Positions 4,580 to 25,331 of a stretch of DNA of 64,000 nt are shown one piece after another. Position 1 is the first letter of the stretch. Every line of letters begins with the position of its first letter. Below the pieces are notes generated by a model that made no database searches, was not told the origin of the DNA, and saw nothing but the letters and a program-made list of their open reading frames with translations. Source of the stretch: Verrucomicrobiales bacterium (GTDB lineage: Bacteria; Verrucomicrobiota; Verrucomicrobiia; Limisphaerales; CANJXF01); assembly GCA_947478865.1 (NCBI GenBank), contig CANJXF010000001.1, positions 1 to 64,000 on the forward strand, in the 5' to 3' direction. The position numbers and the translations under genes are program-made.

Positions 4580-4948
4580 ATGGAACATCCTTATTTGTTT
4601 TTAGTCAGTTTGATCGTCGCCGCGCTGCTCTTTGCGCTGACCCCCCTGGCGCTGGCCTGGATCTGGGCAAAAAAGTTTTCTCCAAAAAAGCCGGGCAAAG
4701 ATAAAAATGCCATCTACGAATGCGGCTTGGAATCCAAACCAGCCGAGTGGGTTCAGTTCAAATCGCAGTATTATCTTTACGGAATTATTTTTCTGATCTT
4801 CGACGTGGAAACGATTTTCCTGCTGCCATTTGCGGTCGCATTCAAAGGGCTTTCCGTCGGCGGCTTCATCGCGATCATGGTTTTCCTTTTCCTGCTGGTG
4901 GAAGGATTGGCATGGGCCTGGGTGAAAGGAGTTTTGACGTGGAAATGA
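4580..4948 (+). CDS. nuoA: NADH-quinone oxidoreductase subunit A
   Basis: NuoA is a small membrane subunit of respiratory complex I at the junction of the membrane arm and the quinone-binding module. The 122-residue protein has three membrane segments and the conserved loop with YECGLES and the following FDVE, both family hallmarks. It opens the nuo block. nuoB follows after 103 bases that contain a long inverted repeat. A 248-base non-coding stretch (4332-4579) in front of it should hold the promoter; no clear -35/-10 pair was recognised. Confidence 0.95.
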   Translation: MEHPYLFLVSLIVAALLFALTPLALAWIWAKKFSPKKPGKDKNAIYECGLESKPAEWVQFKSQYYLYGIIFLIFDVETIFLLPFAVAFKGLSVGGFIAIMVFLFLLVEGLAWAWVKGVLTWK

Positions 4949-5051: not shown

Positions 5052-5669
5052 ATGATTGACGAAGGACTCAAAAACGAACTAAGCAAGCAAGGCGTGTTCA
5101 CCACGTCGCTGAACGAGCTTTACAACTGGGGCCGCAAAAGCTCGGTCTGGCCGCTGCAATTCGGCCTGGCCTGTTGCGCGATTGAAATGATCGCGGCCTC
5201 GATGGCGCGTTTCGACATCGCCCGGTTTGGCGCGGAAGTTTTTCGACCCTCGCCACGCCAGGCGGATCTCATGATCGTGGCCGGAACCGTCACCAAGAAA
5301 ATGGCGCCACAAGTCGTGCGGCTCTACAACCAGATGCCCGAGCCCAAATACGTGATTGCGATGGGCGCGTGCGCGATTTCCGGCGGACCATTCAAGCAAG
5401 GTTACAACGTGCTCAAGGGCATTGATCGTTACATTCCAGTGGATGTTCATATTCCGGGCTGCCCGCCGAGACCCGAAGCGCTCTTGCATGCGTTGATCAC
5501 CCTGCAGGAAAAAATCGCTGCACAAGCCTTGACCGGGCCGAACAAGCCGCGCCATCTGGATCCCGATGCGCCGAGCGAATTTCCCGTTCCCAAATTCGGC
5601 GCCCACGATCTGGAGCCGCCAAAAAATCCCGACCTCTGGCAACCGCCGAAGATGGCAAGAGAAAGCTGA
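5052..5669 (+). CDS. nuoB: NADH-quinone oxidoreductase subunit B
   Basis: NuoB carries the terminal iron-sulfur cluster N2, which hands electrons to quinone. The cysteine set is complete: the CC pair in LACCAIEM, the Cys in GACAISGG and the Cys in PGCPPRPEA. The length of 205 residues is slightly above average because of a proline-rich C-terminal tail. Its stop codon overlaps the ATG of nuoC by one base, so the two are translationally coupled. Confidence 0.96.
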
Positions 5670-6304
5670 TGGAAACCTTGGAACAAATCAAAGTCCGGAT
5701 CGAACAAGCCATTCCCGGCGCGCGTTTGGAAATTATTCCGAATGGCAGTGCGGCCAATCAGCCGTCGCTTTTGATCGATAACGAGCACGCTTTCGCGGCG
5801 GCTAAATTCCTGCGCGATGATTCGGCGCTCCAACTCGATTACGCCGCCAATGCCACCGGCATCGATTGGCTGGATCAGGTCACCAAAGAAAAAGTGAAGG
5901 TGAAAAAAGTCGTCGATGGGGCGGAGCAGGAGGTTGAAGAAACCATTGAGAAGAAAACGCCGGGTTATCTCGAAACGGTTTATCATCTTTATTCGATGGC
6001 GCTGAAACACGGCCCCGTGATTCTGCGCCTGCGCACCGAGAACCGGTCCGATAAGAATCATCTGCCATCGCTCACACCGATCTGGCGCGGCTGCGAATTC
6101 CAGGAGCGCGAAATCTTCGATCTTTACGGAATTATTTTTGACGGCCATCCCGATTTGCGCCGCATTCTGATGTGGGACGAGTTTAAAGATTATCCGATGC
6201 GCAAAGACTACGTTGAGCCGGACGATTACGAATACGAACCGACACCGCACGATGAAGTTCTCGCCAAGGCGAAACTCCATTCCTCCACGGCTGCTTCCCT
6301 CTGA
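5669..6304 (+). CDS. nuoC: NADH-quinone oxidoreductase subunit C
   Basis: NuoC is a peripheral-arm subunit that pairs with NuoD near the quinone site. The C-terminal signature is present (EREIFDLYGI, then HPDLRRILM and the DYPMRKDY stretch). There is a lysine/glutamate-rich insertion around residues 70-90 (KEKVKVKKVVDG), absent from short homologs. The gene starts inside the nuoB stop codon. In most operons nuoD would follow; here a nitrite-reduction cassette of about 8.3 kb separates it from nuoD. Confidence 0.93.
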   Translation: METLEQIKVRIEQAIPGARLEIIPNGSAANQPSLLIDNEHAFAAAKFLRDDSALQLDYAANATGIDWLDQVTKEKVKVKKVVDGAEQEVEETIEKKTPGYLETVYHLYSMALKHGPVILRLRTENRSDKNHLPSLTPIWRGCEFQEREIFDLYGIIFDGHPDLRRILMWDEFKDYPMRKDYVEPDDYEYEPTPHDEVLAKAKLHSSTAASL

Positions 6305-6358
6305 TCTGCTGACTTTGGTCGCGCGGCAAAGTGGCCGCTCCCTAAATCGTTCCAGGGT

Positions 6359-6372: not shown

Positions 6373-6405
6373 TGTTTGCCAACCGCTCGGTGGCAAACTG
6401 TGGAC

Positions 6406-8261: not shown

Positions 8262-8271
8262 TCCGCCATCT

Positions 8272-9910: not shown

Positions 9911-10221
9911 GCTGTGACCGAATCGATGACGCAACCGTTCTGGAGGTTTTACGCCAGGTGATCGACCCGGAACTGGGCTGCAACGTGGTTGACCTCGGCT
10001 TGATTTACAGCATCGCAATCAGCGGTCGGAAGATCGATGTGGTGATGACGCTGACCACGCCCGGATGCCCCATGCACGAAGCTCTTTGCCAGGGGGTGCG
10101 AAACGCTTTGCTCGGCTTGGATAACGTGGACGAAGCGGAGGTGCAGCTCGTTTGGGAACCCGCCTGGGATCCTTCCATGATGAGCGCGGCAGGACGGACG
10201 GCAACCGGCGTCGAAATTTAG
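9907..10221 (+). CDS. MIP18/PaaD-type iron-sulfur assembly protein (DUF59)
   Basis: The 104-residue protein matches the MIP18 family: LRQVIDPELGCNVVDLGLIYSI at the start, then MTLTTPGCPM with the conserved Cys. Members help place iron-sulfur clusters, or serve as PaaD-like factors for metal enzymes. Within this cassette it may help mature a metal centre of a neighbouring protein (inference). The start codon overlaps the preceding membrane-protein gene by four bases (ATGA), so the two are coupled. Confidence 0.88.
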   Translation: MSCDRIDDATVLEVLRQVIDPELGCNVVDLGLIYSIAISGRKIDVVMTLTTPGCPMHEALCQGVRNALLGLDNVDEAEVQLVWEPAWDPSMMSAAGRTATGVEI

Positions 10222-10236
10222 AAACAGAAAAAAATT

Positions 10237-10602
10237 ATGAATACAAACATGCAAAACGAAATCGTGATCGGCCCCGACCGCGTGATGGACGTGCGCCCGA
10301 TCCCCTGCTCCATCAAACACAAACTGATTATCCGCACCTGGCTCGAACTGCCGGTTGGCGACCACTTTGTTTTGCTCAACGACCACGATCCAGTTCCGCT
10401 CTATTACCAGTTCTCCGCGCAATGGCCGGCGGCATTTACCTGGGAACATCTCGTCAGGGGCCCGGAAGAATTTCGCGTGAAAATTACTAAGCTAAAGCAG
10501 ATCGAGCCGCAGAGCCCTCCGGCTGACGGGATAAAACATGACCTTGGTCAAAGAATTCCGGCGAAAACCAGGATAGCTTTAACCGAGATCGAAGCTGCAT
10601 AA
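10237..10602 (+). CDS. DUF2249 protein (second of three)
   Basis: The 121-residue protein carries a DUF2249 domain at residues about 17-85 ([39 protein letters not shown]). A C-terminal tail of some 35 residues has no recognisable motif. The HDP motif and the Trp pair are typical of the longer DUF2249 subgroup. The function is unknown. It is placed directly before nirK, which starts 34 bases downstream. Confidence 0.8.
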
Positions 10603-10636
10603 GTTTCTGAAGCAGCCAAGAAAACCAAAACACACT

Positions 10637-12166
10637 ATGAGAACCTCTATTCTAAAAACAACCATCGCAGCACTGGCCCTGGCGGCATTGTCGCTCGGCC
10701 CGACTCAGGCCGCGGAAACGGAAAACAAATCCAACGCACAAAAACCGGTGGATCCTGAAGTCAAAGGGGAAGAGATCGCCGTATTGACCCAGGCACCCAA
10801 AGTTCCACCGCCAATCACGCGAAAATTTTCCACAAAAGTGATCGTGAACCTCGAAGTTATCGAAGTGACGAAACGTTTGGCGGAAGGAGTCGAATATGTG
10901 TTCTGGACCTTTGGCGGGGAGGTGCCGGGGAGTTTTATTCGGATTCGAGAAGGCGATCATGTGGAGTTCCACTTGAACAACCATCAGAATAACAAGATGC
11001 CGCACAACATCGATTTACACGCAGTCACGGGACCGGGCGGCGGCGCGGCGTCTTCATTCACTGCGCCGGGACATACCTCCCAGTTTTCATTCAAGGCGCT
11101 CAATCCGGGCCTTTACGTTTATCACTGCGCGACCGCACCGGTCGGAATGCACGTCGGCAACGGCATGTACGGCTTGATTCTCGTTGAACCGAAGGAAGGA
11201 CTCCCTCCCGTCGAGCGCGAGTATTACATTATGCAGAGCGAGTTCTACACGGCGGGCAAGTTCGGCGTGGAAGGATTGCAACCGTTCGACATGGAAAAAG
11301 CGATCGATGAGAAGCCGAGCTATGTCGTGTTCAACGGCTCAGTCGGCTCCCTGGTCGGCGACAAAGCCATCACCGCAAAGGTCGGAGATCGCGTCCGGTT
11401 GTTCATCGGCAACGGCGGACCGAACCTCGTTTCCTCCTTCCACGTCATTGGAGAAATTTTTGATAACGTCTACCAGGAAGGCGGCGTTGTTCCCACGCAA
11501 CATCATGTGCAAACCACGATCGTTCCGGCCGGCGGTTCGGCGATGGTCGATTTCAAAGTCGAAGTGCCAGGGACCTATATTCTCGTCGATCATTCTCTGT
11601 TCCGCGCTTTCAACAAAGGAGCGCTCGGCATGTTGAAAGTGGAAGGCCCGCAAAACCTGATCGTTTACTCGGGCAAGGAAGTGGACGCGAATTATCTGGG
11701 CAAAGCGGTCGCCGCGGGCTCGGACGCGGAGAAGAGAGTGGCGACTTTGAAAGCCGCCGTGGCACAAGAAATCAAGAGCAACCCGAAGATCTCGGATTTG
11801 AATAAAGAAATTCAAATTGAAAAAGGGAAACAGGTTTATTTGCAAACCTGCTTCGTGTGCCATCAGCCGGACGGAAAAGGGATTCCCGATCAAATCCCGC
11901 CATTGGCCAAATCCGATTTCTTGATGGCGGACAAAGAGCGGTCCATTCGCGGCGTGCTCATGGGGCAATCGGGTGAAATGGAGGTCAACGGCAAGAAATA
12001 CAACGGCGTGATGATTCCGTTGAATTACTTGAATGACGAAGACATTGCGAATGCGCTGACCTATGTTCGCAACAGCTTTGGCAATTCCGGCGATGCCGTC
12101 TCTCCGGCAAGCGTCGGCAAGATCCGCAAAGAAGTCGTGGTGCCAACCCCCACTTCATTTGAATAA
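10637..12166 (+). CDS. nirK: copper nitrite reductase with C-terminal cytochrome c domain
   Basis: NirK reduces nitrite to nitric oxide in the periplasm. A signal peptide (cleavage near GPTQAA) precedes two cupredoxin domains. The type 1 copper ligands are H123, C164, H172 and M177. The type 2 ligands are H128, H163 and H319. The catalytic pair is D126 and H269. After residue 390 there is an extra domain with one heme-binding CFVCH motif (405-409), so an electron donor is fused to the enzyme; such tethered forms are known in several bacteria. It is the central enzyme of the cassette. No nitrous oxide reductase or typical NO reductase is in the window. Confidence 0.95.
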
Positions 12167-12196
12167 TTTGATCGTAACTGCGCGAGAAAATCCGCC

Positions 12197-13009
12197 ATGA
12201 AAGCATGGAAACAAAACGTCGTCGCCGCGCTGATCTTCACGGTCAGCGCGGCGTTCGCGTCAGGACAACCCTCGCCGCAGGAGCTGACAACCGCGCGGCC
12301 GCCCGCCGGCATGGCAGCGATTCCCGCCGGCGTTTATCGCCCGCTTTTTCGAGCAGACACCGATTTGAAAGAAGTTCCCGTTCACCCGTTCCACCTCGAT
12401 GTGTTCCCGGTCACGAACGAAGATTTTCTGGAATTCGTTCGGGCCAACCCACGCTGGCAGCGGTCTCGAGTGAAACCGATTTTTGCCGATCCATCTTATC
12501 TGAAAGATTGGGCGGGCGATCTCGATCCCGGCCCAAACGCACCAGCCAAAGTGCCGGTAACGTCGGTCTCGTGGTTCGCGGCCAAAGCCTACGCGCAATG
12601 GAAAGGAAAACGGCTCCCGACATTGGCGGAGTGGGAATACGCGGCAGCTGCCAGCCCAGCCAGGGCCGATGGAGAAAATGACCCCGCTTTCAAACGGCAA
12701 ATTGTTCAATGGTACTCCACGCCTACGCCGCCAGAACTTTCCCCGGTCGGATTGAATCGCGCAAACTTCTGGGGCGTTCACGATCTCCACGGCCTGGCCT
12801 GGGAGTGGGTGGCCGATTTCAGCACGGCGATGGTGACCGGCGATGCCCGTGGCGATACCGGGATCGAGCGCCAACTTTTTTGCGGCGGCGGTGCACAAAA
12901 CGCAAAAAATGTTGAGAACTACCCGGCGTTCATGCGCTACGGTTTTCGCAGCAGTTTGAAAGCAGATTATTGCGTCCATAATCTTGGTTTTCGCTGCGCC
13001 AAAGATTAA
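12197..13009 (+). CDS. nirV: NirV-like protein of the formylglycine-generating-enzyme fold
   Basis: The 270-residue secreted protein has the SUMF1/FGE fold: MAAIPAGVYRP, HPFHLDVFPVTNEDF, PVTSVSWFAAKAYAQWKGKRLPT and the closing NLGFRCAKD. The gene next to nirK in other denitrifiers, nirV, encodes the same fold, so the name follows from context. The two catalytic cysteines of true sulfatase-modifying enzymes, which lie between the GGS-type strand and NLGFRC, are not in their usual place, so it probably does not make formylglycine. Its role in NirK function is not established. Its stop codon overlaps the SCO start by one base. Confidence 0.85.
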   Translation: MKAWKQNVVAALIFTVSAAFASGQPSPQELTTARPPAGMAAIPAGVYRPLFRADTDLKEVPVHPFHLDVFPVTNEDFLEFVRANPRWQRSRVKPIFADPSYLKDWAGDLDPGPNAPAKVPVTSVSWFAAKAYAQWKGKRLPTLAEWEYAAAASPARADGENDPAFKRQIVQWYSTPTPPELSPVGLNRANFWGVHDLHGLAWEWVADFSTAMVTGDARGDTGIERQLFCGGGAQNAKNVENYPAFMRYGFRSSLKADYCVHNLGFRCAKD

Positions 13010-13632
13010 TGAAACCGTCCGCAACCATATTCCTCCTTGCTCTCACAAGCCTGGGGCTGGCGAGTTGCGCGACGGATTCGAGAGATCCCGCCGCGAAAAA
13101 ATCGTGCTGTGCAACGGTCGAAGCGCCCGCCGCTTTCACGGACAAATCCATTTATCAAACCGAGTCTGCATGGACGACAGATCAGGGGAAGCAACTCAAG
13201 CTGAGCGAACTGCGCGGGCGTCCACAAGTCGTCGCGATGTTTTTTGCCAGCTGCCAGTTTGCCTGCCCGATTCTCGTCAATGACATGAAGCGGCTCGAAT
13301 CGTCTTTGCCTGCCGAACTGCGGTCGCGCATCGGGTTTACGCTCGTGTCATTCGACACGGAACGCGACACGCCGTCAGCTTTGGCCGAGTATCGCAAGGC
13401 CCACGCTTTGACGAAGGACCGATGGACCTTGCTCCGAGGCAGCCCTGACGACGTGTTGGAACTGGCCGCGTTGCTTGGGGTGAAATACAAAGCCGATGCG
13501 AACGGGCAATTCGCACACTCCAACATCATCACAATCTTAAATGCGAACGGGGAAATCGTTTATCAGCAGATCGGATTGAACCAAGACATCCAGAAAGCCA
13601 GGCAAACCCTGCAACAGTTGCTCCACCCGTAA
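13009..13632 (+). CDS. SCO1/SenC-family copper chaperone lipoprotein
   Basis: SCO proteins deliver copper to the CuA site of oxidases or act as thiol reductases. The metal/redox motif C82-QFA-C86 (CxxxC) and the later His in GQFAHSN are present. The N-terminus has a lipobox (LASC, C20), so the protein is probably anchored to a membrane on the periplasmic side. An extra CC pair lies at residues 33-34. Next to nirK and nirV, the natural client is the copper of NirK or of the upstream membrane protein (inference). Confidence 0.9.
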   Translation: MKPSATIFLLALTSLGLASCATDSRDPAAKKSCCATVEAPAAFTDKSIYQTESAWTTDQGKQLKLSELRGRPQVVAMFFASCQFACPILVNDMKRLESSLPAELRSRIGFTLVSFDTERDTPSALAEYRKAHALTKDRWTLLRGSPDDVLELAALLGVKYKADANGQFAHSNIITILNANGEIVYQQIGLNQDIQKARQTLQQLLHP

Positions 13633-13637
13633 TCACC

Positions 13638-13880
13638 ATGCTTCCACTCAGCCAATTCAAACGTTTCGATGTGCGCGAGATTCTAAAGCACGGAGGCGAA
13701 CCCTTTCTCGAAATTCGCAAACGCATCGATGCGCTTAAAACCGATGAAGGATTAATCATTGTCGCGCCATTCCTGCCATCGCCGCTCATCGAAAAATTCC
13801 GGGGCGAAGGGTTCTCGTCGAAAATCGAGCATGGAACCGGCGCAGAATGGATTGTTTATTTCTGGCGCGACACCAAGTAG
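13638..13880 (+). CDS. DUF2249 protein (third of three)
   Basis: An 80-residue single-domain protein: FKRFDVREILKHGGEPF at the start, then LKTDEGLIIVAPFLPSPL and IEHGTGAEWIVYFWR at the end. This is the compact DUF2249 form. It starts five bases after the SCO gene and directly precedes the regulator gene. The repeated pairing of DUF2249 genes with nitrite genes argues for a role in NO or nitrite handling, but no activity is known. Confidence 0.8.
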   Translation: MLPLSQFKRFDVREILKHGGEPFLEIRKRIDALKTDEGLIIVAPFLPSPLIEKFRGEGFSSKIEHGTGAEWIVYFWRDTK

Positions 13881-13891
13881 AACCATCCGAC

Positions 13892-14611
13892 GTGACTGAA
13901 GAAATCAGCCAATTTAAAAAATTTGCCATCGCCACGACCCTGCGAAGTTGCCAGCTTTTCACGGGACTTTCTCCCGAGGACTTTCAAAACATCGCCGGGT
14001 TTGTGGCGGTCAAATCCCTTGCCAAAGGCGAATATTTGTTCCGCGAAGGCGATCCGTCCCACGGCTTTTACATCGTGCAAAAGGGAGCAATCAACGTGCA
14101 CCGCGTCAACGCTTCCGGCAAAGAACAAATCATCCACGTTTTTCGCGCGGGTGAATCGTTCGCCGAAGCGACGCTGGCCTCCGACAAAGGTTATCCCGGC
14201 GATGCGCGCGCGGTCTCCGCTTCGACCGTGTTGCTCGTGCAGAAAACCGGCTTTCTTGCGCTGCTGCGGCGCCGACCCGATCTCGCGTTGCGGATGTTGG
14301 GTTCAATGAGCGCCCATCTTCGCGTGCTGGTCGGCCAACTCGACGATCTCACGCTGAAAGACATTGAAACGCGCCTAGCCAATTGGCTGGTGAAACATTG
14401 CCCCAACCCCGCCAGCAACCAACCTGCCCGCATCGAACTCAGCCTGACCAAGCGGATGCTGGCGGCGGAACTCGGGACGGTCAGTGAAACGTTTTCCCGC
14501 ACCCTGGCCAAGTTTCGCGAACAGAAATTAATCAAAGTCGAAGGTAAAACCATTATTGTGCTCTCGCCCATGCAGCTTGGCGCGATGTTACGCAAGAATC
14601 TGGGCGAATGA
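13892..14611 (+). CDS. Crp/Fnr-family regulator, DNR-like
   Basis: The N-terminal half is a cyclic-nucleotide-type sensor domain (LFTGLSPEDF, LFREGDPSHGFYIVQKG, then AGESFAEATLA). The C-terminal half is a winged helix with the recognition stretch LAAELGTVSETFSRTLAKF. The cysteine cluster that holds the iron-sulfur centre of FNR is absent, so a heme/NO-type DNR or NnrR mode of sensing is more likely. It sits at the end of the nitrite cassette, and the FNR-type palindrome at 6359-6372 is the obvious target. The GTG start at 13892 avoids overlap with DUF2249; an in-frame ATG at 13847 is possible. Confidence 0.88.
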   Translation: MTEEISQFKKFAIATTLRSCQLFTGLSPEDFQNIAGFVAVKSLAKGEYLFREGDPSHGFYIVQKGAINVHRVNASGKEQIIHVFRAGESFAEATLASDKGYPGDARAVSASTVLLVQKTGFLALLRRRPDLALRMLGSMSAHLRVLVGQLDDLTLKDIETRLANWLVKHCPNPASNQPARIELSLTKRMLAAELGTVSETFSRTLAKFREQKLIKVEGKTIIVLSPMQLGAMLRKNLGE

Positions 14612-14692
14612 TTTTCACTCGTTTAAACTATAAATTACGGACGGGACAAACGCAGGCTTGTGTATCGGAGCAGGAACTGAAAACTAAATTAC

Positions 14693-15898
14693 ATGGCGAT
14701 TGAGACGACATTTCAGCCAAAGGCAACGCTGGGAAGAACGGCGCCGGGCAATTACACCCTGTTGCCCAAGACCCCGGCGGGCGCAATTGGTGGAATCGAC
14801 GGCACCGTTCTCGAAGTCGCCATGGGCCCGCATCACCCGTCCACGCACGGCGTTTTCCGCATGGACGTTTCCCTCGATGGCGAAACCGTCGTAAAGCTTA
14901 AACCCGTTTTTGGCTACCTCCATCGCAACCACGAAAAAATTGCCGAAAACACGACTTATCTCGGCTCGGTTCCTTACACCGACCGTCTCGATTATCTCTG
15001 TTCGATGACGAACAATTGGGCTTACGCGCTCTCCGTCGAGCGGTTGGCCGGGCTGCAGGTTCCCGAACGCGCTGAATACATCCGCGTCATTACCGCCGAA
15101 CTCACGCGTCTGGTGAATCATTGCAGCTTGATTGGGTTTCTCATGCAGGACATGGGCGCGATGGGCACGCCGCTCATGTATGCGTTTCGTGAACGCGAAA
15201 AAATTCTCGATCTGTTCGAATCGCTCAGCGGCTCGCGCATGATGTGCAACTACATGCGCTTCGGCGGTTGCCGCTGCGAGCTGCCCAGCGGTTGGATCGA
15301 GCAGGCCAAGAAAGTTGTCACCAGCTTCCCGGAATTTCTCGACCACTTCGAAGCACTCCTCAGCGAAAACGAAATCCTCCTCGCCCGAACTCAAGGCGTT
15401 GGCGTGCTATCAAAGGAACTCGCCATTAACGCCAGCATCACCGGCCCGATGCTCCGGGCCAGCGGCGTGAATTACGATATTCGCAAGGTGGACAAATACG
15501 GCATTTACGATCGTTTCAGTTTCCGCGTGCCGCTTGGTGAACATGGCGACGTTTTTGATCGCTACATGATGCGTGTTCTCGAAATGCGCGAATCGCTGAA
15601 ACTCCTGGAGCAAGCCCTCGCGCAGATTCCGTCCGGTCCGATTATTGATCCGAAAGCAAAGTTGCGCGGCTTTCGCCAAAAACCCGGCGAAGCTTACGCC
15701 CGCATCGAAGGACCGAAAGGCGAGCTTGGGTTTTATTTAATCAGCGACGGTTCGCCCAATCCGTATCGCTATCGTGTTCGTCCGCCGAGCCTGATCAATC
15801 TCACAATTTTGGAAGACATGTGCCTTGGTCAAACCATCGCCGATGCCGTGATTATTTTAGGCAGTGTCGATATTGTTTTGGGCGAGGTGGACCGATGA
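14693..15898 (+). CDS. nuoD: NADH-quinone oxidoreductase subunit D
   Basis: NuoD (401 residues) forms the quinone-binding pocket of complex I together with NuoB. The signature [14 protein letters not shown] is intact, as are the downstream conserved stretches (GYLHRNHEK, the tyrosine in the quinone loop, and DPKAKLRGF). It resumes the nuo block after the nitrite cassette, 81 bases behind the regulator gene. That gap has no recognisable palindrome or terminator, so read-through from the cassette is plausible. Confidence 0.95.
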
Positions 15899-15923
15899 AC
15901 TTTCCAACTTCGAATTTAAGAAA

Positions 15924-16538
15924 ATGTTAGGAACCGGCATCATCAAAGGAATGGTCGAGACGGCGCGAAATTTCGTGGGCAGCTACCACGACCCAGAGCG
16001 CCTCACCACCGTTCAGTATCCCGAGGAAAGACTTGCACCCAAAGAAAACGGCCGCAGTTTTCCGTTCCTGGTTTTCGACGGAAATGATCAGCAAGCCGGA
16101 TTGCGCTGTGTCGCCTGCCAGATTTGCGAAAAAGAATGTCCGCCGCAATGCATCTACATCAACAAGAGCAAAGATAAAAAGCCGGATTACGTCGGCAAAC
16201 TTCAGTTTTATCCCGCGACCTTCGACATCGATATTTCCGTTTGCATGAGTTGCCAGATTTGCGTCGAGGTTTGTCCTTTCGAGGCGATCAAAATGGACCA
16301 GGTTTTCGAGCTCAGCACGTCGGATCGTTTCGGCAAATTGCTTTTGCACAAACCGCAACTCGCCAAGCCGAACGAATATTTTCATCAGCTTCATCCCACC
16401 GATGCCAACGAAGTGGATGCGAGACTTGGCGAAGAAAAAAGGAAAGCCGAAGCCAAAGCCGCGGCCGCCGCCGCAGCTGCTGCCGCAAAACTGGCTGCGC
16501 CAAAACCGGCGCCGGATGAACCCACCAAGGCCACCTGA
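15924..16538 (+). CDS. nuoI: NADH-quinone oxidoreductase subunit I
   Basis: NuoI carries the two 4Fe-4S clusters that lead electrons to NuoB. Both ferredoxin motifs are complete (CVACQICEKECPPQC and CMSCQICVEVCP). Behind the conserved domain runs a tail of about 45 residues, rich in alanine, lysine and proline, unlike most homologs. ATG 15924 is preferred over an upstream frame that overlaps nuoD. The order D-I-H is unusual, since nuoH normally precedes nuoI. The stop codon overlaps the nuoH start by one base. Confidence 0.94.
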   Translation: MLGTGIIKGMVETARNFVGSYHDPERLTTVQYPEERLAPKENGRSFPFLVFDGNDQQAGLRCVACQICEKECPPQCIYINKSKDKKPDYVGKLQFYPATFDIDISVCMSCQICVEVCPFEAIKMDQVFELSTSDRFGKLLLHKPQLAKPNEYFHQLHPTDANEVDARLGEEKRKAEAKAAAAAAAAAAKLAAPKPAPDEPTKAT

Positions 16539-17728
16539 TGCAATCGCTCGACCAAATTTTTGTGACCGGGAAACAATGGCTCCTGGCTTTTCTGCCCGAG
16601 GCGTTGCAGCCAGTCGGCTCCATTCTCCTGGTGATCGCCGCGATCTTTGGCGTATTCGCGACGTTGTTTGCTGTGACCACAATTCTCGAGCGCAAAATCC
16701 TTGGCCGAATCCAAAATCGTTTTGGACCGAACCGCGTTGGGCCGTTTGGCTTTTTCCAGCCTGCCGCCGACGGAATCAAAATGCTCACAAAAGAAGACAT
16801 CGTTCCGCGCGACGCCGACAAAATCATTCACTTCCTCGCACCGCTTGCATTGATTATCCCCGTCGCGCTGGCGCTCTCGGTTTTGCCCTACGGACGCAAC
16901 ATGGTTCCAGTCGAATTCGATGCCGGACTCCTGTTTTTCTTTGCAGTCGGCGCGTCCACGGAGCTTTCTGTTTTCATGGCCGGCTGGTCGAGCCGCAACA
17001 AATACTCGCTCGTCGGCGCGATGCGCGGCATTGCGCAAATGATCAGCTACGAAGTGCCGCTCGTCCTTTCGACCGTCACGGTGATCATGATTGTCGGCTC
17101 GCTTTCCCTTGTGAAAATCGTCGAGGCGCAATCCGGTTTCCTCTTCGGTTTCCTTCCAAGCTGGCACGTTTTCACGCCATGGGGTTTCGCTGGATTTTTC
17201 CTGTTCATGATCGCGGCCACGGCGGAATCCAATCGATCGCCATTTGATTTGCCTGAAGCCGAATCCGAAATCATCGCCGGTTATCTCACCGAATATTCCG
17301 GGTTCAAATACGCGCTGTTTTTCATGGGTGAATATTGGGGAATGTTCGCAATCAGCGGATTGTCCGTCACACTGTTCCTCGGCGGTTGGAACGCGCCGTT
17401 TCCATTTCTGCAATTCATCCCGTCTTACATTTGGTTCTTCACCAAATTGGTTCTCATCATTTTCACCTTCATCTGGCTGCGCGGAACCGTCCCCCGCTTG
17501 CGACTCGATCAACTCATGAGCTTCGCCTGGAAATTTCTCCTGCCGCTCGCGCTGACGAATATTGTGGTCGCAGCAATTTGGTTTTTCTCGCGCGCATTGC
17601 AATTTCCTGGAGCGCTTGGATTGCGCTGGATATTTTGCGCGGCCATTCTGGCCGTTTCGTATGTCTGGCTCGGACGCGGTGTCGCGCAGGCGCAGCGAGC
17701 CAAACGTGTTTATCAATACGCCGAATAA
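16538..17728 (+). CDS. nuoH: NADH-quinone oxidoreductase subunit H
   Basis: NuoH is the membrane subunit that closes the quinone channel and links redox chemistry to the proton pumps. The 396-residue protein keeps the conserved LERKILGRIQNRFGPNRVGP loop and the acidic ESNRSPFDLPEAESE loop, in addition to eight or more membrane helices. It is somewhat longer than the usual 330 residues, mostly at the C-terminus. A 72-base spacer with an imperfect inverted repeat separates it from nuoJ. Confidence 0.95.
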   Translation: MQSLDQIFVTGKQWLLAFLPEALQPVGSILLVIAAIFGVFATLFAVTTILERKILGRIQNRFGPNRVGPFGFFQPAADGIKMLTKEDIVPRDADKIIHFLAPLALIIPVALALSVLPYGRNMVPVEFDAGLLFFFAVGASTELSVFMAGWSSRNKYSLVGAMRGIAQMISYEVPLVLSTVTVIMIVGSLSLVKIVEAQSGFLFGFLPSWHVFTPWGFAGFFLFMIAATAESNRSPFDLPEAESEIIAGYLTEYSGFKYALFFMGEYWGMFAISGLSVTLFLGGWNAPFPFLQFIPSYIWFFTKLVLIIFTFIWLRGTVPRLRLDQLMSFAWKFLLPLALTNIVVAAIWFFSRALQFPGALGLRWIFCAAILAVSYVWLGRGVAQAQRAKRVYQYAE

Positions 17729-17800: not shown

Positions 17801-18400
17801 ATGAACGTGGCTTTCATTCTAATCGCAGGACTCACGCTCGGCAGCGCCATCGCCGCCATGAGCCTGCGCAATCTCGTCCATTGCGCGCTTTGCACTGTGA
17901 TTACTTTTGCCGGGCTCGCCGCGATGTATCTTCAGTTGAACGCGCAGTTCGTCGGCTTCGCGCAAATCTTGGTTTACGTCGGTGCCGTCGCGATCCTGAT
18001 CTTGTTCGCTGTTCTCCTGACGCGAAACAGTGAAAATCAACCGAACACGCTCCTTGCCTCGCCGTCGTGGATCATTGGAATTCTCGTGGCGATTTCTGTT
18101 TCAGGAACAATAATCTACGCCGTCGTCAAGAGCACGAGGCTCGCCCAAACCCTTCCGCCAGCCCCTGAGGCAACCGTGCAGAAAATTGGTGAGCAGTTAA
18201 TGACAAATTACGTGTTGCCGCTGGAAATCGTTGCCCTGTTACTTACCGCCGCAATGATCGGCGCCGTGATTATCGCCATGCGCGACAAAAATGAGAAAGA
18301 GGACAGCGGATCGAAGATGATAACTGGAAATGCGCGGGAACGAGTTTCCCAGCCATCCACTATCCACCATCCATCATCCTCCCAAAAAACAACTCGATGA
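17801..18400 (+). CDS. nuoJ: NADH-quinone oxidoreductase subunit J
   Basis: NuoJ (199 residues) is a five-helix membrane subunit. The conserved helix VYVGAVAILILFAVLL is present and the rest follows the family. The last 25 or so residues, rich in Ser, Pro and His, are encoded by a repetitive CCATCC-type sequence (18355-18385) and look like a chance extension. The gene overlaps nuoK by four bases (ATGA). Confidence 0.93.
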   Translation: MNVAFILIAGLTLGSAIAAMSLRNLVHCALCTVITFAGLAAMYLQLNAQFVGFAQILVYVGAVAILILFAVLLTRNSENQPNTLLASPSWIIGILVAISVSGTIIYAVVKSTRLAQTLPPAPEATVQKIGEQLMTNYVLPLEIVALLLTAAMIGAVIIAMRDKNEKEDSGSKMITGNARERVSQPSTIHHPSSSQKTTR

Positions 18401-18708
18401 CGCCGCTGCATCATTATTTAATTTTCTCCGCGCTGCTCTTCAGCATCGGACTGGCTGGCGCGCTGACCCGTCGCAATGCAATCCTCGTTCTTATTGGCGT
18501 CGAAATGATGCTCAATGCAGCGAACCTGAACTTCATCGCCTTTTGGCGTTACAGCGCCCATCCCGAAGCGCTCACCGGCGTGATGTTCGTCATTTTTTCC
18601 ATCGGCATCGCCGCCGCCGAAGCTGCCGTCGGACTCGCGTTGATCATCGCCATTTACCGCCATTACAAAACGACGAGTCTTGAGAAAGTGGATTCGCTCA
18701 AAGGCTAA
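18397..18708 (+). CDS. nuoK: NADH-quinone oxidoreductase subunit K
   Basis: NuoK (103 residues) has three membrane helices and lies between NuoJ and the antiporter-like subunits. The membrane glutamate in LIGVEMMLNAANLN and the second one in AAAEAAVGLALI are both present; these form part of the hydrophilic axis of the membrane arm. It is coupled to nuoJ by an ATGA overlap and followed by nuoL after three bases. Confidence 0.95.
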   Translation: MTPLHHYLIFSALLFSIGLAGALTRRNAILVLIGVEMMLNAANLNFIAFWRYSAHPEALTGVMFVIFSIGIAAAEAAVGLALIIAIYRHYKTTSLEKVDSLKG

Positions 18709-18711
18709 CGA

Positions 18712-20778
18712 ATGACTTGGATCGCAAAAAATCTTTGGCTGATTCCGGTGCTGCCGCTTGTGGCAGCGGGTTTGAGCGCCTTGCTGAAACAATCTCAGCG
18801 CCGCGCCGCCGCCTCGTTGGCGATTGGCTCATTAGCGATTTCATTCCTCCTCGCGTGCTGCGCTTTCGCGGCAACCTTGCACGCTCCGGTTCACGGTGAA
18901 GTTTTTCGCCAAACTCCAAGTTTCACCTGGCTGCAATTCGGCGAAAGCTCGTTGCGGCTCGGAACGGTGCTCGATCCGCTCACTGCAATCATGCTCGTGA
19001 TGGTGACATTCGTGGGACTTTTGATTTTCATCTACAGCACCGGCTACATGGCACATGACAAGAATTTTACGCGCTTCTTCTGTTTCCTCGCGCTTTTCGC
19101 CGCCGCGATGCTCGGAATCATCATCTCCAATAATTTGCTGCTGCTCTTCATCTCGTGGGAATTGGTCGGACTTGCGTCGTATCTGCTGATCGGCTTTTGG
19201 TATCACAAACCGAGCGCGGCAGCCGCAGCCAAGAAAGCGTTCATCACCACACGGATTGGCGACATGGGGTTTTTCATCGGAATCCTCTGGCTCTATTCGC
19301 AAACCGGCACACTGCTTTTCTACGATCACGGCAACGGCTGCCTCGAAGCGACGGCGCTAACGAAATTAGTTTCGACAACGACGCTCGGCGGCATGGCAGT
19401 CTCTACGGCCATCGCGCTTCTGATTTTCTGCGGCGCAATTGGAAAATCTGGCCAGGTGCCGCTGCACGTCTGGTTGCCCGACGCGATGGAAGGCCCGACT
19501 CCCGTCAGCGCACTGATCCACGCGGCAACGATGGTGGCAGCGGGAGTATTTCTCGTCGCTAGATGCTATCCCATTTTCGAGGTTTCTTCTATTGCGTCAC
19601 TGATCCGTTTTGGCATTCCTGCTCCTCCTCCGTCTCTTGCAATCCAAGTTGTCACCTGGATCGGCGCGATCACCGCCGTGTTCGCCGCGCTCATCGCCGT
19701 TGCGCAAACCGACATCAAACGCATTCTCGCCTACTCCACCGTTTCCCAACTCGGTTTCATGATGATCGGTCTTGGCGTTGGCGGCGTTGCCGTTGGAATG
19801 TTTCACCTGATCACACATGCTTTTTTCAAAGCGCTTTTATTTTTGGGTGCTGGCTCAGTCATTCACGGCTGTCACGAAGAACAAGACATCCGTCGCATGG
19901 GCGGCTTGAAGAAGTTTATGCCGTTGACGTTTGCAACTTATGCCATTGGCATGATGGCGCTGAGCGGTGTGCCACTGTTTTTCTCCGGCTTCTGGAGCAA
20001 AGACGAAATTCTCCATGCCGCGCATAATTGGTCGGTCTCGCAAATTCCATTTTATCTCGCGGCATTCGGCGCCCTGCTCACCGCATTCTACATGACGCGC
20101 CAGGTTTGCTACGTGTTCCTGGGACAAAACAAATCTCACCACAAACCGCACGAAAGCCCGCGGGTCATGACCGTGCCGCTGACAATTCTCGCCGCGTTTA
20201 CCATCCTGCTCGGCATCATCGGCACACCGGTCTGGCCGTGGTTCGAAACGTATTTGTCCGGCCATCACGCCACATTCGATTTCGCAAGACTGACCGAGAA
20301 AGAAACACTATCAACCATGCTCCTCTCGGTCGTCATCGTCGCTGTCGGGATCGGTTCCGCATGGGCGATCTATTCCAAGGTTTCGTTAAAGCCGGCCGAT
20401 GCCGCTGACCCGCTGGAGGCGATTCAGCCGCGCGTTTTCAATCTGCTCCGCAACAAATTCTTCATCGACGAACTTTACGCCGTCACCGTTTTACGCCTGA
20501 ACGCCGTGCTGACTCAATTCGCCGATTGGCTGGATCAAGCCGTCTGGGGCGGAATTGTCAAAGCGTTCTCGTCTTTAGCCATTGGCCTATCGTGGCTCAG
20601 CCGCACTGTTGACGAACAAGTCGTGAACCTCGGATTCAATCAAGGCTGCGAATCGGTCCGCGACTCCTCCAAAGCCGTTTCCAAAATCCAGGACGGCAAG
20701 ATCCAACATTATCTTCGCTACATCGGCATCGCGCTGGTGGTGCTCGCACTCGCTTTGATCTGGGGGTGCCGCTCATGA
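18712..20778 (+). CDS. nuoL: NADH-quinone oxidoreductase subunit L with extended lateral helix
   Basis: NuoL is the distal antiporter-like pump of complex I, and its long lateral helix braces the other pumps. At 688 residues it is longer than usual. The pump residues are present (Glu in FISWELVGLASY, Lys in AIGKSGQVPLHVWLPDAMEGP). The lateral-helix region runs from NKFFIDELY (581) to DGKIQHY (about 661-667). The gap between these motifs is some 25 residues longer than in ordinary NuoL as I know it. It also contains a repeat-like pair, LDQAVWGG (607) and VDEQVVNL (633), 26 residues apart. Such insertions are known from complexes with two NuoM subunits. The gene overlaps nuoM by four bases. Confidence 0.94.
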   Translation: MTWIAKNLWLIPVLPLVAAGLSALLKQSQRRAAASLAIGSLAISFLLACCAFAATLHAPVHGEVFRQTPSFTWLQFGESSLRLGTVLDPLTAIMLVMVTFVGLLIFIYSTGYMAHDKNFTRFFCFLALFAAAMLGIIISNNLLLLFISWELVGLASYLLIGFWYHKPSAAAAAKKAFITTRIGDMGFFIGILWLYSQTGTLLFYDHGNGCLEATALTKLVSTTTLGGMAVSTAIALLIFCGAIGKSGQVPLHVWLPDAMEGPTPVSALIHAATMVAAGVFLVARCYPIFEVSSIASLIRFGIPAPPPSLAIQVVTWIGAITAVFAALIAVAQTDIKRILAYSTVSQLGFMMIGLGVGGVAVGMFHLITHAFFKALLFLGAGSVIHGCHEEQDIRRMGGLKKFMPLTFATYAIGMMALSGVPLFFSGFWSKDEILHAAHNWSVSQIPFYLAAFGALLTAFYMTRQVCYVFLGQNKSHHKPHESPRVMTVPLTILAAFTILLGIIGTPVWPWFETYLSGHHATFDFARLTEKETLSTMLLSVVIVAVGIGSAWAIYSKVSLKPADAADPLEAIQPRVFNLLRNKFFIDELYAVTVLRLNAVLTQFADWLDQAVWGGIVKAFSSLAIGLSWLSRTVDEQVVNLGFNQGCESVRDSSKAVSKIQDGKIQHYLRYIGIALVVLALALIWGCRS

Positions 20779-22325
20779 GCGGACCATTCCTTATCTCGTT
20801 GCTAACCTTCACGCCGCTCCTCGGCGGGCTGGTTCTTCTCACGCTAAAAAGGGAAGAGCAAAAACTGGCGCGCATTTTTGCCATTATCTTCAGTCTGATT
20901 CCAGCCATCGGCGTTCTCGCGCTTTGGAGCAAATTTTCCAACGGCGAAGCCGGACTCCAATTCAGCGAACGTCATCCATGGATTCCGTCGCTCGGCATCG
21001 AATATTTCGTCGGCATCGATGGGCTCGGCCTTCTCATGATGCTGCTGACCACGATTGTGGTGCCGTTCGCGCTCTTCTCCACTTCGAAGGAAATTGCGAA
21101 CCCTAAAATTCACTTCGCGCTCTACCTATTTCTGCAGACCGGACTTTACGGAACATTCACGGCGCTGAATTTTTTCCATTGGTTCATCTTTTGGGAACTC
21201 AGCCTCGTCCCGGCATTTTTCCTGATCAAACTTTGGGGCGGACCGGAACGCACGCGTGCCGCATATCAATTTTTCGTTTACACATTGCTGGGCAGCGTCG
21301 CGATGCTGCTCGCGTTTCTGGCAATTTTCTCCGCAACCGGGGTGTTCGATTTCATCCAATTAGCCGACGCTGCGCGTTCCGGCGCACTCGCCGCCGCCGT
21401 CGAGAACAAGCTGACGCTCGGAAGTTTTTCGGCAGAACAAATTCTGTTTATCCTCTTTCTCGGCGTGCTGCTGGGATTCGCGGTGAAAGTTCCACTCTTT
21501 CCATTTCACACGTGGCTGCCCGCAACTTACGCCGAAGCGCCCAGCAGCGTCTCGATGACGCTGACCGGCGTGATGTCAAAAATGGGCGTGTATGGATTCC
21601 TGAGAATCCTGCTCCCGATTTTCCCTGAACAAATGCGCGCCGCGCTCACGCCTCTGCTCTGGCTTGCCGTCGCCACAATTGTTTTTTCCGCCTACGCCGC
21701 CTACGCGCAAAAAGATCTCAAACGCATCATCGCCTATTCCTCGATCAACCATCTCGGCTACTGCCTGCTCGGATTATTCGCCGTGATGAAATCCACCGAG
21801 GGCGATCTGCTCAGCGAGAAAGCTGCCGCGCTCAACGGCGTAATCCTGCAAATGTTCAACCACGGCATCACCGCCTCCGCGCTGTTTTGTTTCGTCGGAA
21901 TCCTGGAAAAACGCAGCGGCGGAATTCGCGGGCTGAATGACTTTGGCGGCCTGCGAAAAGTCGCCCCGGTGTTCTGCGGCCTGATGGGCATCTCCATTTT
22001 TTCGTCGCTCGGCTTGCCCGGCCTCAATGGGTTCGTCGGCGAATTCTTAATTTTCAAAGGCGTGTTCTCGCTCGCCAGTTGGGCCGCCGCGATTTCCACT
22101 CTCGGACTGCTCATCACCGCCATTTTTCTCCTGACCATATTGCAAAAAGTTTTCAGTGGGCCGGTCAACCAGAAGTGGGCTGGCCTCTCCGATTTGACGA
22201 AGACGGAACGTCTCACCGTCGCACCGGCGATCGCTTTAATGTTCCTCTTCGGCATCTTCCCGCAATTTTTGATCGGCATAATCAATCCGACCGTCGTGGC
22301 GATGTTGCAGCGATTGAATTTTTAA
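20775..22325 (+). CDS. nuoM1: NADH-quinone oxidoreductase subunit M, first copy
   Basis: This is the antiporter-like pump M (516 residues). All key polar residues are seen: Glu141 in FIFWELSLVP, Lys238 in GFAVKVPLFPFHTWLP, and Lys269 in TGVMSKMGVYG. The family stretches YAQKDLKRIIAYSSINHLGY and NHGITASALF are intact. The ATG at 20775, which overlaps the nuoL stop, is preferred over the GTG at 20766. The gene is followed after one base by a second, distinct nuoM, so the two form a tandem pair. Confidence 0.94.
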   Translation: MSGPFLISLLTFTPLLGGLVLLTLKREEQKLARIFAIIFSLIPAIGVLALWSKFSNGEAGLQFSERHPWIPSLGIEYFVGIDGLGLLMMLLTTIVVPFALFSTSKEIANPKIHFALYLFLQTGLYGTFTALNFFHWFIFWELSLVPAFFLIKLWGGPERTRAAYQFFVYTLLGSVAMLLAFLAIFSATGVFDFIQLADAARSGALAAAVENKLTLGSFSAEQILFILFLGVLLGFAVKVPLFPFHTWLPATYAEAPSSVSMTLTGVMSKMGVYGFLRILLPIFPEQMRAALTPLLWLAVATIVFSAYAAYAQKDLKRIIAYSSINHLGYCLLGLFAVMKSTEGDLLSEKAAALNGVILQMFNHGITASALFCFVGILEKRSGGIRGLNDFGGLRKVAPVFCGLMGISIFSSLGLPGLNGFVGEFLIFKGVFSLASWAAAISTLGLLITAIFLLTILQKVFSGPVNQKWAGLSDLTKTERLTVAPAIALMFLFGIFPQFLIGIINPTVVAMLQRLNF

Positions 22326-22326
22326 A

Positions 22327-23841
22327 ATGTTAGCCTGGACCATTTACATTTCATTTATTGGCGCGGCGGCGATGACGTTGCTGCCGGGTTCGCGTCCGCA
22401 AATGGCGCGAGTCACAGCCTTGCTGGCGGCGCTCGGTGGCCTTGCCATCGCGTTGCTCGGCATTCTTCAACACACGCCCGGTGGCGAAATTTCCACGATC
22501 ACGAAACTCGATTGGATTCCCACTCTCGGCATCACATTGCATTTCGCAGCGGACGGAATCAGCCTCGTGCTCGTCTTGCTGACCGGAATCGCGGCGGTCT
22601 GCGGGATTTTGTTTTCGTGGAACATCGAAGATCGCGCGAAAGAATTTTTCGCGTTTTACCTCGCGCTGATTGGCGGCGTTTACGGCGTGTTCCTTAGCTT
22701 CGATTTGTTTCTGCTCTTCGTATTTTACGAAATTGCGATCATCCCAAAATATTTCCTTATCGCGATCTGGGGCTCGACGAATCGCGAATACGGCGCGATG
22801 AAACTGGCGCTCTATTCGTTCATCGGCAGCGCCATGGTTTTGGTTGGCCTCATTGCAACGTATGTCGTGGCCGGGGCGCATACCTTTGATTTGCTCGAAC
22901 TCGCGAAATTTCCTTTTCCCAAAACATTCCAACACTGGGCATTCCCCCTCGTCTTCGTCGGCTTCGCCATTCTCGCCGGTCTCTGGCCGTTTCACACCTG
23001 GGCGCCAACCGGTCACGTCGCCGCGCCGACGGCCGCGTCCATGTTGCTCGCCGGGGTGGTGATGAAGCTTGGCGCCTACGGCGCGCTGCGCGTCGCCATG
23101 ACCCTTTTCCCGCTCGGCCTCGATGCGTGGCGCAATGTCATTGCCGCTCTCGCGGTGATCGGAATTATTTACGGCGCGCTCGTCGCGCTGGTGCAGAAAG
23201 ATTTCAAATTTGTCATCGGCTATTCCAGCGTGAGCCACATGGGATTTGTGTTGCTCGGCATGATGACGCTTTCGCAAATCGGCCTGAGTGGCGCGGTGCT
23301 GCAAATGTTTTCGCACGGAATCATCGCCGGACTTTTGTTCGCGGTCGTGGGCCGAATGGTTTACGAGCGGGCCCACACCCGCGAACTCGCCGCGCTCGAA
23401 GGAATGCATCTGAGCAAAGTAATGCCCTTTGCTGCCGTGACATTTGTCATCGCGTGCGTGGCCTCGATGGGGCTTCCCGGTTTCAGCGGCTTCGTCGCCG
23501 AGCTGCAAGTCATCGTCGGTGCATGGAAAACTTTTCCGGCACTGGCGATTGTCGCAGGGATTGGAATCGTAATCGGCGCCGCTTACACGTTGCGCGCGTT
23601 GATGAAATCATTCTTTGGCGACGCGACAGGGATAAGTTCCACATCGTACGATTTCAAAAATGAAAATGCGGATGCGTTGGAACACATTCCTGCCATCACC
23701 TTTCCCGAAAAACTTGGAGCGACCATTCTCATCGTGACCACTTTCGTCATCGGAATTTATCCGCAGCTGTTGCTGAATCTCATCATGCCGAGCTTCAATT
23801 CGCCGCTCATGCAGCCGCTTTGGAAAGGTGGCCAGCCGTGA
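22327..23841 (+). CDS. nuoM2: NADH-quinone oxidoreductase subunit M, second copy
   Basis: This second NuoM-type antiporter subunit (504 residues) differs clearly from its neighbour and is no recent duplicate. Glu135 (FVFYEIAIIPKYF) and Lys247 (LAGVVMKLGAYG) are kept. The TM7 lysine is replaced: the segment VGFAIL216AGLWPFHTWAP carries Leu where nuoM1 has Lys238. Family stretches VQKDFKFVIGYSSVSHMGF and FSHGIIAGLLF are present. With the extended NuoL, it is expected to sit as a fourth pump-like unit in the membrane arm. Whether it moves protons without the TM7 lysine is open. The stop overlaps the nuoN start (GTGA). Confidence 0.92.
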   Translation: MLAWTIYISFIGAAAMTLLPGSRPQMARVTALLAALGGLAIALLGILQHTPGGEISTITKLDWIPTLGITLHFAADGISLVLVLLTGIAAVCGILFSWNIEDRAKEFFAFYLALIGGVYGVFLSFDLFLLFVFYEIAIIPKYFLIAIWGSTNREYGAMKLALYSFIGSAMVLVGLIATYVVAGAHTFDLLELAKFPFPKTFQHWAFPLVFVGFAILAGLWPFHTWAPTGHVAAPTAASMLLAGVVMKLGAYGALRVAMTLFPLGLDAWRNVIAALAVIGIIYGALVALVQKDFKFVIGYSSVSHMGFVLLGMMTLSQIGLSGAVLQMFSHGIIAGLLFAVVGRMVYERAHTRELAALEGMHLSKVMPFAAVTFVIACVASMGLPGFSGFVAELQVIVGAWKTFPALAIVAGIGIVIGAAYTLRALMKSFFGDATGISSTSYDFKNENADALEHIPAITFPEKLGATILIVTTFVIGIYPQLLLNLIMPSFNSPLMQPLWKGGQP

Positions 23842-25331
23842 ATTTTAATTACGCCGAAATCGTTAAGCTGATCCTTCCCGAGACGATCGTCGTCATCACG
23901 GCGCTCGCCGCCCTGCTCTTTGACCTGGCGATGATGCGCGGGAAAACCGTTCACCAACGCTCCAGCAGGCTCGCCGCCCTGGCCGGGCTTGGGTCAGTTC
24001 TCGCAATTCTCTGCATCTGGCTCACGCCCAGTTATGGAAATCTCCTGAACGGCATGCTCGTGGTCGATCCGCTCACGCAATTCGTAAAACAAATTTTGCT
24101 CGGGCTCACCATCTTCACCGGAATCATTTCCATTCAAACGAAATTCACCCCGCACGTTGGTGAATATTTTGCGCTACTGTTACTCGCCACAGTTGGAATG
24201 ATGTTCCTGGTCAGCTCCGAAAATCTCCTGATGATTTTTGTCGCGCTGGAGCTGATCAGCCTTTCGCTCTATGTGATGGTCGCATTCAAAAAGGAAAGCA
24301 TTCAATCAGCCGAAGCGGCGCTAAAATATTTTCTCTTCGGCGGAATGTCGGCGGCGTTCACGCTCTTTGGATTGAGCCTCATCTACGGATTGAGCGGTGA
24401 AATCAAATTGAGCGCCATCGCCGCCACGATCGTTGGACAAGGCCCCGACCCGCTTTTTCTCCTCGCGCTGGTGATGACCTTGATTGGCTTCGGATTTAAA
24501 ATTGCAGCGGCTCCATTTCATTTGTGGGCGCCGGATGCATATCAAGGCGCACCCACACCGACCGCGTCGTTCATCGCGGCGGGATCAAAGGTGGCCAGCT
24601 TTTTCATTCTCGCCAAAATTGTCTGGATAGGCTTCAACGGCGCTGGCGGAAGCGGTGCGTGGCACGGCTTCGGTTCCGGCTGGATTCCCATTCTCGCGAC
24701 CATGGCCACGCTCTCGATGGTGCTGGGAAATCTCGCGGCCATCTCCCAAACCAGCGTGAAGCGCCTGCTGGCATATTCGGCGATTGCCCACGGCGGCTAC
24801 GCCTTAATCGCCGTCATCACGAATCATCGCGAAGCCGTGAGTTCGCTCCTTTATTACGTCGTAACTTACGCGATCACAGTTTTGGGAGCCTTCGCGGTGG
24901 TGACCGTCGTGGAACACAACACGAAGGGGGACAAGCTTTCTGATTTCGCCGGATTGAGCCGCCGCTCTCCGGTGCTCGCCGGGTGCATGATGATTTTCAT
25001 GCTGTCGCTCGCGGGCATTCCGCCGCTGGCTGGATTTTTTGGGAAATTTTACGTGTTCGCAGACGCATTACGCTACGGCGCAAAGGATCTCGGTTTGCTC
25101 TGGCTCGTCATTCTCGCCATCGGCACAAGTGCCATTTCGCTCTATTATTATTTGCAAGTGCTCAAACAAATTTACGTCGCGCCCTCGGTTGACGGCGGTT
25201 TGAAAATCGACACTGCTTTTCCGGTGCAAGCCGCCATTGTGGTATTGGCCGGTGCAGTTTTGCTCCTAGGCTGTCTGCCAAATCTGCTGGTTGGAAAATT
25301 GTTAGCCGTCCTTCAACGGACCGGAATGTAA
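23838..25331 (+). CDS. nuoN: NADH-quinone oxidoreductase subunit N
   Basis: NuoN (497 residues) is the antiporter-like subunit nearest the peripheral arm. The pump residues are in place: Glu in FVALELISLSLYVMVA and Lys in GFGFKIAAAPFHLWAPD. The family stretches SQTSVKRLLAYSAIAHGGY and AGIPPLAGFFGKFYVF follow. The GTG at 23838, overlapping the nuoM2 stop by four bases, fits the coupling seen across the operon; a TTG at 23820 is also in frame. It closes the nuo block, and no nuoE, nuoF or nuoG is found in the window. Confidence 0.94.
   Translation: MNFNYAEIVKLILPETIVVITALAALLFDLAMMRGKTVHQRSSRLAALAGLGSVLAILCIWLTPSYGNLLNGMLVVDPLTQFVKQILLGLTIFTGIISIQTKFTPHVGEYFALLLLATVGMMFLVSSENLLMIFVALELISLSLYVMVAFKKESIQSAEAALKYFLFGGMSAAFTLFGLSLIYGLSGEIKLSAIAATIVGQGPDPLFLLALVMTLIGFGFKIAAAPFHLWAPDAYQGAPTPTASFIAAGSKVASFFILAKIVWIGFNGAGGSGAWHGFGSGWIPILATMATLSMVLGNLAAISQTSVKRLLAYSAIAHGGYALIAVITNHREAVSSLLYYVVTYAITVLGAFAVVTVVEHNTKGDKLSDFAGLSRRSPVLAGCMMIFMLSLAGIPPLAGFFGKFYVFADALRYGAKDLGLLWLVILAIGTSAISLYYYLQVLKQIYVAPSVDGGLKIDTAFPVQAAIVVLAGAVLLLGCLPNLLVGKLLAVLQRTGM

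Follow-up and report, generated by a model that had tools for sequence, protein, structure and literature searches.

NuoM2, the second of two NuoM subunits encoded side by side in a verrucomicrobial complex I gene cluster, carries leucine at the site of the TM7 lysine that the structural literature describes as absolutely conserved and essential (e.g. PMC7419157). Sequence comparisons indicate that an old NuoM lineage carries this leucine as a fixed character, and hence that the gate has been naturally redesigned rather than a redundant subunit having decayed. Our best reading, held with modest confidence, is that NuoM2 is the native one of the two NuoM in a 2M complex I with four antiporter subunits, that it belongs to an old L-type clade, and that it still pumps with a rebuilt gate. 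The L-type clade, with Leu at the TM7 site, was named in the present analysis; K-type NuoM have Lys there.

NuoM2 is a NuoM lacking the TM7 lysine

The window, the whole 64,000-nucleotide stretch of DNA that was analysed, contains nuoM2 at 22327..23841 on the forward (+) strand, the strand of every feature whose range is written with two dots below. It encodes an L-type NuoM of 504 amino acids, which scores 458 bits against the NCBIfam model TIGR01972 (NuoM; curated cut-off 263.8). The AlphaFold2 model (pTM 0.90) shows the NuoM fold with a broken TM7, and its best PDB match is 8qby_M (TM 0.92). The TM12 residue is Glu392 (GAG, 23500..23502), typical of NuoM; Glu was found here in 106/106 aligned NuoM2, and not Lys as in NuoL and NuoN. 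The preceding gene, nuoM1 (20766..22325, starting at GTG 20766 or ATG 20775), encodes a K-type NuoM scoring 480 bits against TIGR01972.

Leu216 of NuoM2 (CTC, 22972..22974) pairs with Lys234 of the solved E. coli NuoM (3rko) in phmmer, and the pairing was repeated in several MAFFT alignments with no gap nearby. As a control for register, a joint alignment including HyfB placed E. coli NuoL K229, NuoN K217 and HycC L208 in this same TM7 column, and HycC E391 in the TM12 Glu column. Since these published residues land where expected, the TM7 register is sound. Misalignment as the cause of the missing lysine was therefore rejected, the published E. coli NuoL, NuoN and HycC numbering being reproduced. 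The alignments bear out an earlier note on this DNA, which had reported the lysine missing at this codon; they likewise agree with it that Glu135 (GAA, 22729..22731), the TM5 Glu of the ion pair, and Lys247 (AAG, 23065..23067), the central TM8 Lys, are retained. The same note called the TM7 lysine essential for pumping, which is supported by the loss of activity or catalysis on its mutation in the studied NuoM of E. coli and P. denitrificans (PMC3046159, PMC9802314). A canonical K-type NuoM pairs this Lys with the TM5 Glu; NuoM2 has Leu216 instead, though Glu135 is present.

One species-genome scan together with a search of relatives of the same order yielded 98 distinct NuoM2 sequences from Verrucomicrobiota and Acidobacteriota, which rule out sequencing error or chance at Leu216. 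The TM7 residue was Leu in 97/98, Met in one and Lys in none, so that Leu is a feature of the clade, a question that the earlier note had left to such an alignment. In distinct NuoM1 sequences it was Lys in 95/95; in the window this Lys is encoded at 21486-21488 (residue 241 from the GTG, 238 from the in-frame ATG). The codon of the sole sequence with Met (L112) may be a step between those for Lys (AAG) and Leu. In both phyla the sampled NuoM2 genes adjoin nuoM1, and contigs that extend far enough show the order L-M1-M2-N.

In the AlphaFold2 model, Leu216 lies at the C-terminal end of TM7a, beside the TM7 break at 217-224. The earlier note had asked whether a lysine lies one helix turn away; no replacement Lys was found in TM7 at the level of Leu216. 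The only new basic residue near the ion-pair site is Lys141, on TM5.

The remaining proton path is conserved

In the joint alignment, NuoM2 residues K294, H230, K247, H304, H330 and E392 correspond to E. coli K312, H248, K265, H322, H348 and E407, all of which belong to the NuoM proton path listed in PMC13324432. The only listed proton-wire residue absent from NuoM2 is the poorly conserved Asp258, which is also absent from NuoM1 and from the NuoM of a second complex I in the same genome (contig C9). As the N-side uptake residues, the TM8 Lys, the axis His and the TM12 Glu are intact, NuoM2 can most probably still take a proton up, conduct it and release it.

Mean conservation was 70.2% for NuoM2 vs 62.7% for NuoM1, with NuoM2 the higher in 98% of genome pairs; across distinct NuoM2, TM7-TM8 stood at 96% majority. 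NuoN, encoded at 23820..25331, retains its TM5 Glu and its TM7, TM8 and TM12 Lys, as do 91/91 NuoN sequences. Because the proton wire and these NuoN residues are kept and NuoM2 is more conserved than NuoM1, we consider it fairly likely from the sequences that NuoM2 pumps with a rebuilt gate. A search for a compensating change in NuoN revealed no charged column separating the partners of L-type and K-type complexes; the only separating column was Ala/Thr vs Met at residue 353 of the window's NuoN.

Other gate residues change together with the lysine

Substitutions were compared among 31 single L-type, 23 NuoM2, 47 K-type and 23 NuoM1 sequences. Together with the loss of Lys234, Pro236 gives way to Ser, Ala or Gly, Trp143 mostly to His or Tyr, and Leu244 to Ala or Ser. 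NuoM2 follows this pattern, with Leu at 234, a residue other than Pro at 236, His/Tyr at 143 and Ala/Ser at 244, and it lies within the L-type clade. Gly218 (22978..22980) replaces the TM7 proline, and Ala226 (23002..23004) replaces the gate leucine (E. coli Leu244, P. denitrificans Leu242, Nqo13 Leu214; PMC9802314, PMC13220270). Since these changes accompany the loss of Lys234, the alignments indicate that the gate of L-type NuoM is jointly remodelled, beyond one missing residue. The canonical K-type NuoM/ND4/Nqo13 (E. coli 3rko, P. denitrificans 8qby, T. thermophilus 4he8) have in common with NuoM2 the fold, TM5 Glu, TM8 Lys, axis His and TM12 Glu, whereas their Lys234, Pro236, Trp143 and Leu244 are all four replaced in it. 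Mutation of the gate leucine (L242A) abolishes catalysis in P. denitrificans (PMC9802314), and L214A speeds proton conduction in isolated Nqo13 (PMC13220270). At 244, NuoN has a residue other than Leu as well (Thr in E. coli), so a change at this position is not diagnostic by itself.

Lys141 (AAA, 22747..22749), six residues past Glu135, is specific to NuoM2: it was invariant in 97/97 distinct NuoM2 and occurred in 0/31 single L-type and 0/70 K-type NuoM. The equivalent E. coli position, 150, is Met in the 47 K-type sequences other than NuoM1, mostly Ala in NuoM1, and mostly Thr or Met in single L-type NuoM. Lys141 arose once, with NuoM2, and its tie to the loss of the TM7 Lys is a single event and not a statistic. 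A spacing of six from the Glu, on a helix with proline at +5, is non-standard for a salt bridge and counts against pairing with Lys141; single L-type NuoM manage without this lysine.

In single L-type NuoM, position 259, which matches the listed NuoL input-channel residue His254 (PMC13324432), is mostly His, and 264 is mostly Lys. Two L-type NuoM of Verrucomicrobiota (L139, L143) have Gln265 and Ser348 but keep Lys264; possibly the central Lys has shifted by one residue, or the subunit is degraded. In three acidobacterial K-type NuoM (L169, L179, L187), Asp replaces the TM5 Glu144.

L-type NuoM is also the sole NuoM of other complexes

The second complex I of the same genome (G000 contig C9; L114) has one NuoM, also with Leu at the TM7 site. 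Only one protein exceeded the NuoM cut-off in each of ten near-complete Verrucomicrobiota genomes, five of which consist of a single contig, and it was L-type in all ten. Single-NuoM complexes with the same Leu occurred in many Verrucomicrobiota, in two Bacteroidales plasmid records and in two acidobacterial genomes. K-type NuoM was found in the majority of the sampled Acidobacteriota, in rhizobia, and in 'green'-type complexes, which have two NuoL/MrpD-like subunits. One genome (G047) carries three kinds of complex I: 2M, the type with two NuoL/MrpD-like subunits, and single L-type (L135, L136, L137). Viral contigs, searched for further NuoM, gave Lys at 58/58 readable TM7 sites and no L-type; they are probably cellular contamination.

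The two NuoM subunits probably have separate origins

Trees were quick ones, without bootstraps, and their root is uncertain. All L-type NuoM fell on one side of a branch with SH-aLRT 100, which became 99 without the TM5-TM8 columns and 99 with outgroups. A clade of NuoM1 and NuoM2 was rejected (AU p=0.0027). In a concatenated NuoH+L+N tree, the 2M complexes grouped with the single-L complexes of Bacteroidales and Acidobacteriota (99), and K-type complexes formed a separate group (100), adjoined by the single-L complexes of Verrucomicrobiota. Since the NuoH/L/N backbone sides with NuoM2, NuoM2 appears to be the inherited, native NuoM and NuoM1 the addition.

Rooted with NuoL, NuoN and hydrogenase outgroups, the tree had the L-type clade as one of the two deepest NuoM branches. 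This raises the possibility that Leu is ancestral in NuoM and that the K-type branch alone regained Lys or retained it. Lys occupies the TM7 site in NuoL, NuoN, HyfB, HyfD and HyfF, so that a single loss on the stem of the L-type clade is the simpler account, and the outgroup branches are long; we regard an ancestral Leu as improbable.

Comparison with known systems and rival explanations

2M complex I is a known architecture (Chadwick et al. 2018, doi 10.1038/s41396-018-0210-1), whose extra NuoM is described as adding a proton in PMC9040806, PMC7117926, PMC12342949 and PMC11636273; one with duplicated nuoM is expressed in Acidobacterium capsulatum (PMC11636273). The window shares with it the order nuoL-M1-M2-N and an insertion of about 25 residues in the lateral helix (HL) of NuoL. 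The part of the literature covered, which includes 2M papers, contained no report of a complex I NuoM missing the TM7 Lys; the original Chadwick 2018 description lies outside that part and may discuss the lysine. TM7 Leu in HycC and TM7 Glu in MbsH are, like the 2M architecture, already known. HycC of E. coli formate hydrogenlyase resembles NuoM2 in having Leu208 at TM7 and keeping TM5 Glu135, TM8 Lys239 and TM12 Glu391 (PMC5061711, PMC9474812). HycC grouped with HyfB (99) outside NuoM, and NuoM2 lay inside NuoM (100); because its sister HyfB has Lys, the Leu of HycC is an independent loss. MbsH, an antiporter-like subunit of the MBS complex proposed to pump, likewise has no TM7 Lys; unlike NuoM2, it has Glu219 in that place and a TM12 Lys, and belongs to a different enzyme (PMC7684303). 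DabB2 of DAB2 shows an altered ion-pair arrangement in a PF00361 antiporter-like fold, as does NuoM2, but it is NuoL-like and coupled to CO2 hydration, not a redox pump (PMC13144422).

The main rival to pumping is that NuoM2, or L-type NuoM in general, serves as a structural or lateral-relay element, handing the electrostatic signal or protons on along the axis without proton release of its own, so that a 2M complex would move no more protons than an ordinary one. Studied NuoM require both the TM7 Lys and the gate Leu244 (PMC9802314), neither of which NuoM2 retains; moreover, models with release by ND5 only are under discussion (PMC9802314). Pumping is unproven in HycC, which shares the Leu, and substitutions in its channel had little effect (PMC5061711, PMC9474812), but HycC differs from NuoM2 in also lacking the N-side Lys (Q285) and one axis His (N295), and is a single antiporter subunit. 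The proton wire of NuoM2, including the TM12 Glu and the N-side residues, is invariant, the subunit is under stronger constraint than NuoM1, and a relay element would need a gate too. We therefore consider a relay unlikely, though the most serious of the alternatives.

The earlier note had read the substitution as the loss of a lysine by an extra copy, perhaps now a spacer or a differently working pump. The adjacency of nuoM1 and nuoM2, and the Lys of NuoM1, would suit a recent loss after duplication that left a reduced or re-purposed pump. This reading is very improbable, and the spacer is not supported: many complexes I have the same Leu in their sole NuoM, NuoM1 and NuoM2 do not form a sister pair, the NuoH/L/N backbone groups with L-type complexes and points to NuoM1 as the addition, and NuoM2 is the better conserved, with its wire complete bar Asp258. 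Decay of a spare duplicate was ruled out by the AU test, the backbone, this conservation and the Leu in the sole NuoM of ten genomes. Least probable of all is transport of another ion, e.g. Na+ or K+, by L-type NuoM, which the note had also raised. Mrp-type homologues act with cations and the Lys gate is altered, but no acidic or hydroxyl cluster stands in for the Lys (the residues are Leu-Ala-Gly or Leu-Val-Ser), there is no break in the proton wire, and in Mrp the cation path runs through other subunits (PMC7419157); nothing was found to point to another ion.

A possible gating mechanism

Pumping by L-type NuoM could proceed as follows. In reference models of studied NuoM, a proton reaching the TM12 Lys of NuoN opens the Glu-Lys pair within the subunit, and current wave and domino models treat this pair as obligatory. 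Because the TM5 Glu of L-type NuoM has no TM7 partner, it would pair directly with the NuoN TM12 Lys across the subunit border. The lost positive charge may be supplied in NuoM2 by the invariant TM5 Lys141, and in single-NuoM L-type complexes by the extra TM8 His or Lys. It is conceivable, if somewhat short of an even chance, that in a large, naturally occurring clade of functional complex I the central pump works without an intra-subunit Glu-Lys pair, the gate lying at the NuoN-NuoM border, plus a TM5 Lys in the four-pump complexes. Organisms whose sole NuoM lacks the Lys would test whether pumping requires the ion pair or whether it is just one gating option. The L-type finding would also bear on whether the 2M complex pumps five protons; the literature covered, which was partial, contained neither biochemistry or other experiment on any L-type NuoM nor a measured stoichiometry for a 2M complex.

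Gene cluster

The cluster runs nuoA-B-C, a block of other genes, then nuoD-I-H-J-K-L-M1-M2-N. The first three genes are nuoA (4580..4948; ORF with PF00507 at C1:4652-4942), nuoB (5052..5669; ORF, TIGR01957) and nuoC (5669..6304; ORF, blastp 47% to C9 NuoC). The second part comprises nuoD (14693..15898), nuoI (15864..16538, start codon uncertain), nuoH (16538..17728), nuoJ (17801..18400), nuoK (18397..18708) and nuoL (18712..20778), followed by the two nuoM genes and nuoN. NuoL has a long lateral helix; by alignment with NuoL of single-NuoM complexes, its HL insertion, a 2M marker, spans residues ~617-641 (20560..20634, edges approximate). Two nuoM genes between nuoL and nuoN and a lengthened HL helix identify a 2M complex I. 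The spatial order L-M1-M2-N is probable, gene order being only a guide.

No match to nuoE, nuoF or nuoG was found inside the 64-kb window, and in the genome, which is 97% complete, NuoF was found only in the other complex I (nuoB-N, contig C9, L114 3406-17703). As the sole NuoF found lies in that complex, the 2M complex may receive electrons from a shared EFG, from ferredoxin or from another module. The block of about 8.4 kb between nuoC and nuoD (6305-14692) contains genes, named by sequence alone, for a putative porin, an NnrS-like membrane protein, an SCO-like protein and a Crp/Fnr regulator, and a copper nitrite reductase fused to cytochrome c at 10637-12166. In one relative (L026) the cluster is rearranged, with nuoBCDI downstream of nuoN.
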